A DNA stretch of 64,000 bases from contig PHCQ01000031.1 in NCBI GenBank assembly GCA_002840835.1, positions 1 to 64,000 on the forward strand. Direction: 5' to 3'. This document shows positions 5,090 through 53,629 of the stretch, in pieces; positions within the stretch are counted from its first letter, which is position 1; every line of letters begins with the position of its first letter. A program made the position numbers and the translations under genes. The DNA is from Betaproteobacteria bacterium HGW-Betaproteobacteria-16. GTDB taxonomy: Bacteria; Pseudomonadota; Gammaproteobacteria; Burkholderiales; Burkholderiaceae_C. The notes under the pieces were generated by a model that did not search any database, was not told the DNA's origin, and saw nothing but the letters and a program-made list of their open reading frames with translations.

Positions 5090-5691
5090 TGCACTTGCTC
5101 CAGGAAGTTCTTGAGCATCGCGTGGCCATGCTCTGTGAGGATGCTTTCGGGGTGAAACTGCACGCCTTCGATGGCCAGCGTCTTGTGTTTCACACCCATG
5201 ATTTCGCCATCGGGCGTCCAGGCGGTGACTTCCAGGCAGTCTGGGCAGGTGCCGCGTTCGATGGCCAGCGAGTGGTAGCGGTTCACGGTGAACTGCTCAG
5301 GCAGATGGGCAAACACCCCTTGCTGCGTGGTGGTGATGACGCTGGTCTTGCCGTGCATGAGTTCTTGCGCGCGAACGATGTTGCCGCCGAAGGCAGCGCC
5401 AATGCTCTGGTGACCCAGGCACACGCCGAGGATGGGCAGCTTGCCGGCGAAGTGCTGGATGGCGGGCACCGAAATGCCGGCCTCGGCGGGCGAACACGGG
5501 CCGGGCGAAATGACCAAGCGGTCCATGTGGCCAGCGTCCAGCCGGGCCTGCAGCTCCGCGACGGTGGTTTCGTCATTGCGCACCACGGTGACGTCAGCAC
5601 CCAGCTCGCCGAGGTACTGCACGATGTTGAAGGTGAACGAATCGTAGTTGTCCACCATCAGGACCTGGAGGGGTTTTCTGGATTGGCTCAT
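5086..5691 (-). CDS. trpG: Anthranilate synthase component II (glutamine amidotransferase)
   Basis: Supplies ammonia from glutamine to TrpE for anthranilate formation. This 201-residue class I amidotransferase has the start [11 protein letters not shown] region, the oxyanion/GPCSP motif near 63-67, the nucleophile Cys91 in GVCLGHQ, and the His/Glu pair in VQFHPESI near the C-terminus. The start ATG (5691) lies five bases after the trpE stop. A longer open frame upstream lies inside trpE and is not supported. In many bacteria this subunit also serves as PabA for folate synthesis; no second copy is seen here. Confidence 0.96.
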
Positions 5692-50589: not shown

Positions 50590-50659
50590 CAGAGGTTCTC
50601 CATGATGCCAAGCGCTTGGCATTCCATCCAATGACATGCAGCAGGGCCAAAATAGCGCC

Positions 50660-52159
50660 ATGCACAAGACACCCCACTTTACCGCTCCCCTCTTTTTCAG
50701 CGATCCGGCCGCCGCGCTGGCCCAGGTGCAGCGCATCTACCACGAGGGCGTGGATTTCCTGCGCACCGCCATGCGAGAGTTTGTCGATGGCAACGACACC
50801 ACTGGCCAGCAGCGCGTGCGGGCTTGTTATCCCTTTGTGCGCCTGCACACCCACAGCGTGATGCGCCAGGGCACGGTCCCCAACAGCCGCCTGAGTTACG
50901 GCTTTGTGGCCGGCCCGGGGCGCTTTGAGACCACGCTGACCCGCCCTGACCTTTACGCCAACTACTACCTGGAGCAGTTCGAGCTGCTGCTGGCCAACCA
51001 CGGCGGCGAACTTGAAGTGGGCACCAGCGCTCAGCCCATCCCCATCCATTTCTCGTTCGCTGAACACGACCACGTGGAAGGCACCATGAGTGCCGCGCGC
51101 CGCGCCCTCATGCGCGACGTGTTCGACCTGCCCGACCTGACCGCGATGGACGACGGCATCGCCAACGGCACCCACGAGCCGCGCCCGGGCGAGCCGCACC
51201 CGCTCTCACTGTTCACTGCGCCGCGAGTGGACTACTCGCTGCAGCGCCTGCGGCACTACACTGGCACGGCGCCGGAGTGGTTCCAGAACTTCGTGCTGTT
51301 CACCAACTACCAGTTCTACATCGACGAGTTCATCAAGCTCGGCCATGCCGAAATGGCCGATCCGCAGAGCGACTACATCGCCTTCGTGGAGCCCGGCAAC
51401 GTGGTCACGCGTCGCACTGGCCTGCCCGCCGAAGTGGGCGACGAACTCGGCCACGCGCCTCCCCGCTTGCCGCAAATGCCCGGCTACCACCTCATGCGCG
51501 CCGACCGCACCGGCATCACCATGGTCAACATCGGCGTGGGGCCGGCCAATGCCAAGACCATCACCGACCACATCGCCGTGCTGCGCCCGCACGCCTGGCT
51601 CATGCTGGGCCACTGTGCCGGCCTGCGCAACAGCCAGCAACTGGGCGACTACGTGCTGGCCCACGCCTACGTGCGCGAAGACCATGTATTGGACGAAGAA
51701 CTGCCGCTGTGGGTGCCCATTCCCGCGCTGGCCGAAATCCAGCTGGCGCTGGAAGCCGCCGTGGCCGACGTGACCGGCGTGCCCGCAGCCGAACTCAAGC
51801 GCATCATGCGCACTGGCACCGTGGCCAGCACCGACAACCGCAACTGGGAACTGCTGCCCGACAACAAGCCCCAGCTGCGTTTTTCACAATCGCGCGCCGT
51901 CGCGCTCGACATGGAGTCCGCCACCATCGCCGCCAACGGCTTCCGCTTCCGCGTGCCCTACGGCACCCTGCTGTGCGTGAGCGACAAGCCCCTGCACGGC
52001 GAAATCAAGCTGCCCGGCATGGCCAACCACTTCTACCGCGAGCGGGTGGACCAGCACCTGCGCATCGGTATCCGTGCGGTGGAGCGCCTGCGCGAGGGCG
52101 GGCCGGATCAGTTGCACAGCCGCAAACTGCGGAGTTTTGCGGAGGTGGCGTTTCAGTAA
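50660..52159 (+). CDS. amn: AMP nucleosidase
   Basis: Splits AMP into adenine and ribose 5-phosphate. The 499-residue protein has an N-terminal AMP-nucleosidase-specific domain (YHEGVDFLRTAMREFVDGND, GTVPNSRLSYGFVAGPGRFE, TTLTRPDLYANYYLEQFELL) and a C-terminal PNP/UDP-fold: QNFVLFTNYQFYIDEFIKLG, GITMVNIGVGPANAKTITDH, MLGHCAGLRNSQQLGDYVLA and ALDMESATIAANGFRFRVPY. The length fits the long Amn type. Divergent from the broken MgtC gene; the start is ATG 50660. Behind it lies an AbiE-like relic. Confidence 0.95.
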   Translation: MHKTPHFTAPLFFSDPAAALAQVQRIYHEGVDFLRTAMREFVDGNDTTGQQRVRACYPFVRLHTHSVMRQGTVPNSRLSYGFVAGPGRFETTLTRPDLYANYYLEQFELLLANHGGELEVGTSAQPIPIHFSFAEHDHVEGTMSAARRALMRDVFDLPDLTAMDDGIANGTHEPRPGEPHPLSLFTAPRVDYSLQRLRHYTGTAPEWFQNFVLFTNYQFYIDEFIKLGHAEMADPQSDYIAFVEPGNVVTRRTGLPAEVGDELGHAPPRLPQMPGYHLMRADRTGITMVNIGVGPANAKTITDHIAVLRPHAWLMLGHCAGLRNSQQLGDYVLAHAYVREDHVLDEELPLWVPIPALAEIQLALEAAVADVTGVPAAELKRIMRTGTVASTDNRNWELLPDNKPQLRFSQSRAVALDMESATIAANGFRFRVPYGTLLCVSDKPLHGEIKLPGMANHFYRERVDQHLRIGIRAVERLREGGPDQLHSRKLRSFAEVAFQ

Positions 52160-52246
52160 GTGGGGGTCTTCTGCTGGGCTGAGAAATTGCCCGCGGGGCG
52201 AGCAAGCCCCGATCAAAGCCTTCACTGTAGGGCGTCTCTCAGATTC

Positions 52247-52285
52247 CTATTTGTCCGAAAAAAGTGCAATCTTTCGGACAAATAG
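52247..52285. promoter_or_regulatory. 14-bp perfect inverted repeat (operator-like) before the AbiE relic
   Basis: CTATTTGTCCGAAA (52247-52260) and TTTCGGACAAATAG (52272-52285) are perfect 14-bp arms around an 11-nt spacer. The segment is AT-richer than its surroundings and sits about 50 bp before the first recognisable codons of the AbiE-like relic. AbiEi-type antitoxins are known to autorepress through inverted repeats in their promoters. Confidence 0.6.
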
Positions 52286-52332
52286 ATACTCACTGCTTCA
52301 CCACAAGCTTCGCGCACCCACGCCCAACAGCC

Positions 52333-52506
52333 TGGATTCGCAGCTGTCACGCCGCGTGCAACGCAGCGCAAACGGCGCGGTCTTCAAGCGCGGCACTTCT
52401 CTGTGCAAGGTGTCTGGCGTGATCGACCAAGCTTCCGGAAGACATCGACCTGTGCTTGGTGCCGACGTTCGTAGCCGAGGCCGAACACCGGCTGAATTCA
52501 GTTTGA
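52333..52506 (+). pseudogene. Relic of an AbiEi-AbiEii toxin-antitoxin cassette
   Basis: One frame reads SLDSQLSRRVQRSANGAVF, like the start of DUF6088/AbiEi-type antitoxins. It runs directly into KRGTSLCKVSGVID, like the FKGGTSLSKVxGxIDRFSEDIDL motif of AbiEii nucleotidyltransferase toxins. The expected SEDIDL then appears in another frame as PEDIDLCLVPTF (from 52435), which ends at TGA 52504-52506. So the antitoxin C-terminus and most of the toxin are gone, and a frameshift separates the remaining pieces. No start codon is clear. It cannot make either protein. The assignment rests on motif recognition only. Confidence 0.5.
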
Positions 52507-52605
52507 AGCAATTCAGCTTTTGCTCCGAACAGGACGCTTTTCACCTTTCAACCGGTCAGGCGAAGCTGAATGGTCCTCATAAGGACAAAAATTCAGGTCG
52601 GCCCC

Positions 52606-53316
52606 TCACCCCGCCCCGTCTTCCTCATCCCCCTCACTCAGCGTCACCAGCAACTGCACCACCTCCGCACACTCTTCCTCAATCCGGCTGACGGCGCGGC
52701 GTCCCCCTGGCGCCAGTTGTTGGTGTTCATGGCTGCGCAGATACTCGGCCTGCTCCAGGATCGCCGTCATGCGTTCAAAGAGTTCGGAGGTGATCGCATC
52801 GGTGCGGTTGGCAGACTGGGGAATCTGGGTGGCTTCGAATTCGGGTGGTGCCGGGGCCAGATCGGTATGGAAGGCAAAGTCGCCCTCGGCATTGGATTCC
52901 AGTTCGATGGTTTCCATTTCAGCGAACGCAAGCAGATGCTCAACCCGCTCACGGATGAAAGCCCGGTCGAACGGTTTGACGAAAAAATCCACCGCGCCCA
53001 GGGCCAGCGCCTGATCGCGGTACGACTGCTCGGTGTGCGACGAGACCATCACCACCTGTGTGCCCATGAGCTTGGGGTTGCCACGCATGCGCTCCACCAC
53101 CTGGTATCCGCTCAGGTCCGGCATGTCGATGTCGATCAGCATCAGGTCCGGCGTGTTGGCCTCCAGCTTGATCAACGCATCTTCCCCGCGCACGGAAAAA
53201 TGCAACTGGGCCAGGTCCAGCAAGGTCCTGGCCAGCACGTGGACCATGCTGGGATCGTCATCGACGATCAGGATTCTTCGGCGTCTCTCGGTCTGGTCTG
53301 ACACGGCGTTGTGCAT
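52606..53316 (-). CDS. Response regulator with receiver domain and unknown C-terminal part
   Basis: A 236-residue protein: receiver domain at residues 15-135 with RRRILIVDDDPSMVHVLART, phosphoacceptor Asp in PDLMLIDIDMPDLSGYQVVE, VVMVSSHTEQSYRDQALALG and AVDFFVKPFDRAFIRERVEH (conserved Lys). The rest is acidic and helical (TSELFERMTAILEQAEYLRS, RIEEECAEVVQLLVTLSEGD) without a recognised output domain. GAGGGG before the ATG at 53316 sets the start. No histidine kinase is adjacent. It may act through protein contacts as a stand-alone regulator. Confidence 0.85.
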   Translation of the reverse strand: MHNAVSDQTERRRRILIVDDDPSMVHVLARTLLDLAQLHFSVRGEDALIKLEANTPDLMLIDIDMPDLSGYQVVERMRGNPKLMGTQVVMVSSHTEQSYRDQALALGAVDFFVKPFDRAFIRERVEHLLAFAEMETIELESNAEGDFAFHTDLAPAPPEFEATQIPQSANRTDAITSELFERMTAILEQAEYLRSHEHQQLAPGGRRAVSRIEEECAEVVQLLVTLSEGDEEDGAG

Positions 53317-53629
53317 CCGGTTGTCCCCTCGTACGGCGATTCGATTCAATCCGCTTTTTCAAACGGTATCACGATCGATCAAAAGTCCGAAATATTGGAC
53401 ATGCGCCGATACTGAACACTTCCGACCCAGGTGAAGCACGGAAAAAGCCGACATTTGCCGGCCATTCCTGCTCACCGCCGACCATCTTGCCCCTGACAAC
53501 CGGCCCCCTGCGGCGAACGCCGGCACAAGCGCCAGCCCTTGCGACAGAACTCTCATCCGCTCTCAAAGCCGCAGCGCTTTACAGGTGCTTCACAAACACG
53601 ACACACCACGGACGAAGGCGCTGCGCACA
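53317..53629. other. 313-bp divergent intergenic region
   Basis: Lies between the response regulator and the efflux operon. A dyad GTCC-N8-GGAC around AATATT (53385-53400) sits in an AT-richer part and could be an operator for either side. No convincing -35/-10 pair stands out and no small gene is recognisable. Confidence 0.35.

Follow-up and report, generated by a model that had tools for sequence, protein, structure and literature searches.

Among the described toxin-antitoxin systems close to the locus considered here is AbiE of Streptococcus agalactiae, a type IV system in which the AbiEi antitoxin binds inverted repeats in the promoter and represses the operon (PMC3985639). The motifs of its AbiEii toxin were reported as essential, and replacing the first glycine of motif I gave a non-toxic protein; phage defence has also been published for some AbiE systems (PMC3985639). 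The pairing of AbiEii with a DUF6088 antitoxin is already in print as well: a survey of toxin-antitoxin systems in marine genomes lists 13 such pairs (PMC12654330).

In the window (the whole stretch of 64,000 nucleotides that was analysed), positions 52247-52506 are very probably the remains of a type IV, AbiE-like toxin-antitoxin operon that collapsed recently and is now dead, as judged by comparison with intact homologues. An operon of AbiE type, with a DUF6088 antitoxin and an AbiEii nucleotidyltransferase, once about 1.75 kb long, has been cut down to 260 bp. What is left lies on one strand and in the original order: first the operator, then residues 1-27 of the antitoxin, motifs I and II of the toxin, and last the C-terminal end of the toxin, stop codon included (Table 1). 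The antitoxin lies upstream of the toxin, adjacent and on the same strand, an arrangement shared with the cassettes of three congeners, G024, G076 and G066. A first-pass annotation, made from the sequence alone, had described a 14-bp perfect inverted repeat, a piece of an antitoxin start, a GTSLxKVxGVID motif and an EDIDL piece in another frame, and read them as the relic of an AbiE-type cassette with a preserved operator. The repeat was borne out, with its coordinates right, and all three coding pieces are present; a fourth piece, the end of the toxin gene with the stop codon, had gone unnamed.

Table 1. Features of the cassette relic and its two neighbours (positions in the window)
Feature	Position	Strand	Remarks
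amn, AMP nucleosidase	50636..52159	+	left neighbour of cassette; Pfam AMNp_N E 1e-52, PNP_UDP_1 E 2e-14
Operator, 14-bp perfect inverted repeat, 11-nt spacer	52247..52285	+	arms 52247-52260 / 52272-52285; 13-bp core arms 52248-52260, 52272-52284
Antitoxin (AbiEi/DUF6088) remnant, residues 1-27	52305..52385	+	reads KLRAPTPNSLDSQLSRRVQRSANGAVF; 54/81 bases identical to G076, ungapped; start codon lost
Toxin (AbiEii) motif I region, FKxGTSLxKVxGVID	52380..52427	+	reads VFKRGTSLCKVSGVID; 41/48 bases identical to G076
Deletion junction 1, short direct repeat (Val-Phe codons)	52380..52386	+	string present in both antitoxin and toxin genes
Net one-base length change (frameshift) between motifs I and II	52428..52434	+	from blastn gaps and positions
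Toxin motif II region (EDIDLCLVPxF), shifted frame	52435..52472	+	reads PEDIDLCLVPTF; tblastn 62.5% over 16 aa; translation
Toxin C-terminus AEAEHRLNSV and stop codon	52474..52506	+	22/23 bases identical to G066 toxin end
Deletion junction 2, 5-bp string	52474..52478	+	both sides in G066; flanks compared by eye
Response-regulator gene	52606..53349	-	right neighbour; Pfam Response_reg E 1e-23

The assignment is supported by the intact homologous operons found at amn, by the colinear order of the pieces and by an operator that matches theirs and sits in the corresponding position. When 60 genomes (the window's own and 59 relatives) were searched at the DNA level, two matches about 840 bp apart came up besides the window, both in G024. 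They fall on the operator and on the motif region of an operon that is intact and encodes a DUF6088 antitoxin of 225 aa (Pfam E 7e-44) and an AbiEii toxin of 350 aa as translated (Pfam E 1e-32). Its operator begins about 20 nt past the amn stop codon. A second intact operon with the same operator core is present in G076, where the operator stands 7 nt past amn. The intact AbiE pair with the same inverted repeat that the first-pass annotation had proposed looking for is thus found beside amn in two congeners, and its reading of the locus as a cassette relic is upheld by relatives at the same gene. Both operons resemble the relic in their place beside amn, in core arms and spacing, and in the colinear pieces; they are intact, whereas the relic has two deletions, a frameshift, no start codon and a different right-hand neighbour. 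In G066 a related cassette lies one gene further along from amn and has a different repeat, the inverted repeats there (L053, about 5100-5250) being of a GCCAC type; operator specificity seems to have diverged among the relatives.

Of the 67 genomes of the genus, 60 contain amn (the window's own and 59 others), and the proteins of G024, G076 and G066 are 84.8-88.7% identical to that of the window. For the survey downstream of amn, two loci (L082 and L083) had no sequence past the gene, leaving 57 others, 27 of which could be read for at most 1.5 kb; G066 had been fetched twice (L029 and L053) and was counted once. Cassette genes follow amn in 3 of the 57, and the relic does so in the window. 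One further locus, L064, gave a weak AbiEii match downstream of amn (28.9%, E 0.003). The response-regulator gene on the right of the relic also stands next to amn in G087 and G004, with no cassette between them, and the right-hand neighbours in G024 and G076 have starts shared, by eye, with cassette-free relatives. Cassettes may have inserted next to amn repeatedly, or amn may have moved together with its cassette. The site is variable in the genus: the first 1.2 kb downstream of amn at 59 loci (G066 included twice) fall into 16 DNA-similarity groups, three of which contain AbiE cassettes or the relic.

As for the coding remnants, the antitoxin piece is putatively assigned to its family through the G076 gene it matches (Table 1), which is 77% identical to the DUF6088 protein of G024; antitoxin remnant and operator together gave a blastn E of 4e-12. 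The motif I piece is joined in phase to the antitoxin start and matches the intact G024 AbiEii at 73.7% over 19 aa by tblastn (a small database was searched, and the E of 2e-4 is for the motif I and II pieces combined). The toxin span between motif II and the C-terminus is absent; going by the family, this span should hold motifs III and IV (PMC3985639), and its loss makes the locus a relic and no longer a functional AbiE system. Motif I has also lost its first glycine, with residue correspondence drawn by motif. With the antitoxin down to 27 residues, the toxin lacking the motif III/IV span and the motif I glycine gone, the remains should yield no working antitoxin or toxin.

The inverted repeat has fared better than the genes. 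A search of the window for the 13-mer arm, with up to 2 mismatches allowed, found 2 matches, which are the two arms themselves; shuffled windows gave 0.15 matches on average and at least 2 matches in 2 of 100. Genome-wide, the exact repeat with 12-bp arms has a single location, and the operator core occurs exactly in 3 of the 67 genomes of the genus, the window's own among them. Relative to the intact cassettes of G024 and G076, 0 of 26 positions differ in the core arms, and the 11-nt spacing is also the same. The repeat is present in and common to intact cassettes, and antitoxin binding to it is predicted; these comparisons point strongly to a former antitoxin operator, a candidate binding site. 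This reading is sound because similar palindromes stand upstream of related antitoxins, one of them with matching changes in both arms.

Unchanged arms were compared with the coding pieces, in which 8 of 77 constrained positions (those invariant in six intact relatives) have changed. The excess conservation of the operator is suggestive but not significant (P 0.058 by a simple binomial, 0.089 by Fisher's test), and the comparison draws on few sequences, most of the intact relatives having come in through exact operator matches, so that their arms are identical by data selection. In the spacer, 1 of 6 invariant positions has changed in the relic; the changed position is taken as part of a putative -10 element, where a promoter scan returned no promoter-like site. 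By piece, the relic has changed at 4 of 33, 2 of 27 and 2 of 17 constrained positions, and intact sequences held out in turn had changed at 1-3 of 34-36, 1-2 of 28-29 and 0-3 of 17-20. The relic is thus only modestly more diverged than living copies, and the recent collapse proposed in the first-pass annotation is moderately supported. If the collapse was recent, an intact operator is unsurprising, and recency is the most likely source of the operator's survival.

Other explanations for the persistent repeat were considered. One is that it was taken over as a 3' RNA hairpin ending or protecting the amn transcript, which appears unlikely. The transcript would fold into a 14-bp stem at -18.3 kcal/mol (z -5.8 against shuffles), and the operator closely follows the amn stop codon in both G024 and G076. 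However, any perfect operator palindrome results in such a stem, and the operator of the intact G024 cassette folds likewise (z -3.9). No terminator-like sites were found in 52100-52700, where shuffles lead one to expect 0.7, and there is no T-run behind the stem; moreover, an exact copy of the core is missing from 64 of the 67 genus genomes. Folding of the 87 nt that separate amn from the repeat does not exceed the shuffle level (z -0.5).

Alternatively, the operator may have been kept by selection as a decoy titrating an AbiEi-type antitoxin, either resident or brought in by plasmids or phages; this is decidedly improbable. Its appeal lies in the arms, unchanged against the changes in constrained coding and invariant spacer positions, and in the occurrence of cassettes with this operator in related genera. 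Against it, the excess conservation falls short of significance by Fisher's test, the intact relatives G024 and G076 likewise show 0 arm differences, and the relic had no match in a plasmid search. For a resident partner, neither a DUF6088/AbiEi homologue nor a second operator was found in the window's own genome. An antitoxin protein query that matched 11 of 67 genus genomes, down to 30% identity, found none there, nor did it at the stricter 1e-20, and a DUF6088 profile search of that genome was negative. The profile search also matched none of 14 control genomes and so counts for little alone, the antitoxin query being the better control for absence. An AbiEii search of the same genome did find one other family gene (C188:15725-16255, L094/L095), sitting behind a helix-turn-helix gene as read by eye; within 8 kb around it the best operator-like site has 11 of 26 mismatches. 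That nucleotidyltransferase gene and its helix-turn-helix neighbour perhaps form a different type of toxin-antitoxin system. A resident decoy partner appears absent as far as the assembly and the searches reach, and the first-pass suggestion of a leftover site titrating a homologous antitoxin elsewhere is not supported: no such antitoxin was found in this genome, and the sole other AbiEii-family gene found has no such operator nearby.

The same operator was followed beyond the genus. A scan for exact 12-bp arms separated by 9-13 nt covered 84,980 species genomes (contigs of at least 3 kb, the window's own record possibly left out) and matched 10 stretches; in 8 of these an antitoxin match of 36-77% identity lies beside the repeat, one of them (L092) being G076. 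In a ninth stretch, positions 2750-2935 of L091 from Gammaproteobacterium RBG_16_51_14, the core arms are identical and only the first 15 or so antitoxin codons remain, as judged by eye. Unrelated DNA, which may be an insertion element and in part reads N, interrupts the gene there. This is likely a second relic. It shares with the window relic the core operator arms and an antitoxin start; it was broken by unrelated DNA in another host class, whereas the window relic was broken by internal deletion. It could be counted as a second case of an orphan operator outliving its operon under selection, as a genomic decoy for the antitoxin of incoming AbiE-bearing elements, a proposal with very little probability. 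In the tenth stretch, L088 (Prevotella, 5159-5193), a perfect operator-like hairpin has no antitoxin match alongside; it was set aside, being compatible with chance by a rough, uncomputed estimate.

Homologues of the antitoxin at E <= 1e-20 occur in 46 of 399 genomes drawn from the family, and 14 of 30 loci (L096-L109) were examined, L096 apparently being the same contig as L086. Among the 11 closer loci (L096-L106), a TGTCCGAAA-type repeat lies upstream in 7 and a related GCCAC type in 2 or 3, and L101 has none. Among the 7, the repeat of L097 reads TGACCGAAA: its two arms carry one and the same substitution, which fits recognition by a symmetric protein. The best repeat in each of the 3 more distant loci also contains a GTCCG-type half-site. 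At L106 (1220-1821, G263), another of the 7, the antitoxin homologue is split by a frameshift, with a near full-length toxin match behind it and an operator with one arm mismatch; the split is a break, a sequencing error or recoding. A palindrome TGTCCGAAA...TTTCGGACA recurring upstream of DUF6088-class antitoxins, with symmetric variants, provides a testable predicted binding site; no earlier description of it was met in literature searches that were not aimed at the motif itself.

The way in which the operon was broken can be reconstructed from the junctions. Nearly the same short string encodes a Val-Phe pair in the antitoxin and in the toxin gene, and junction 1 falls inside it, with about 750 bp missing relative to G076. 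At junction 2 about 740 bp of the toxin is missing relative to G066 and G076, and on its right-hand side G076 differs from the 5-bp string. Going by these junctions, most of the antitoxin and toxin genes was probably lost through two deletions, each between short direct repeats. Both deletions preserve codon phase, which would happen 1 time in 9 if phase were random, and this counts against the collapse of an ordinary cassette as the best explanation. It could instead suggest that the in-phase fusion of antitoxin start, motif I and toxin end is, or was, a mini-protein under selection, such as a toxin fragment with dominant-negative action, with the motif residues partly retained. Such a product is highly improbable: the antitoxin start has no start codon, motif II is out of frame with motif I, and motif I lacks its first glycine. 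At junction 1, moreover, both repeats share the same codon phase, so that the phase would be kept there with no need for selection.

That the pieces merely resemble AbiE by chance is refuted by shuffles and control loci and has a negligible probability: in favour of chance, the fragments lack Pfam matches, but they are colinear at the same gene, share the operator, and, with the inverted repeat removed, match the intact cassettes at 92.4 bits in G076 (E 2e-22) and 74.3 bits in G024 (E 6e-17), beyond the best of 1000 dinucleotide shuffles (31.9 and 28.3 bits) and of 54 equal-length control pieces downstream of amn at other loci, cassette carriers left out (29.2 and 31.0 bits). The Pfam scan itself found 0 families at E <= 10 for 3 of 3 very short fragments. 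This is literally the outcome that the first-pass annotation had named as telling against its AbiE assignment, and its profile check came out negative to that extent; the comparison with intact relatives, in turn, shows the AbiE homology. The Pfam result was given no weight because fragments of this size are too short for a profile search.

In summary, the relic is an ordinary, well-resolved pseudogenised toxin-antitoxin cassette. A live operon would once have stood downstream of amn, with an operator/promoter, a DUF6088 antitoxin and an AbiEii nucleotidyltransferase toxin; going by its family, the antitoxin would have sat on the repeat as a repressor of the operon and would also have counteracted the toxin. 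Two deletions would then have taken most of both genes, with the start codon and reading frame lost as well. The operator may persist because too little time has elapsed or because nothing acts against the repeat, and no present function would be required of it. The window's assembly, in 232 contigs and 100% complete with 6.26% estimated contamination, counts against this account. The relic illustrates one route of operon loss, in which deletions at short direct repeats remove parts of antitoxin and toxin and a recognisable skeleton stays.

Compared with known systems, the relic resembles AbiE of S. agalactiae in the order of its genes (antitoxin, then a nucleotidyltransferase toxin of the AbiEii/DUF1814 family), in promoter inverted repeats and in recognisable motifs I and II (PMC3985639). 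The S. agalactiae system has a repeat of 11 bp with a 27-nt gap and another sequence, and an antitoxin of AbiEi class (PMC3985639). The window relic has arms of 13-14 bp with an 11-nt gap and an antitoxin remnant probably of DUF6088 class, and its genes are dead. In M. tuberculosis Rv2827c-Rv2826c, an AbiEi-like antitoxin binds inverted repeats in the promoter and represses its own operon, much as would have been the case for the relic while it was alive; that system, unlike the relic, is intact and has two sets of repeats (PMC7319586). The AbiEii/DUF6088 pairs tallied in marine genomes have the same gene pairing as the relic, in a table passage that gives neither an operator nor a relic (PMC12654330).
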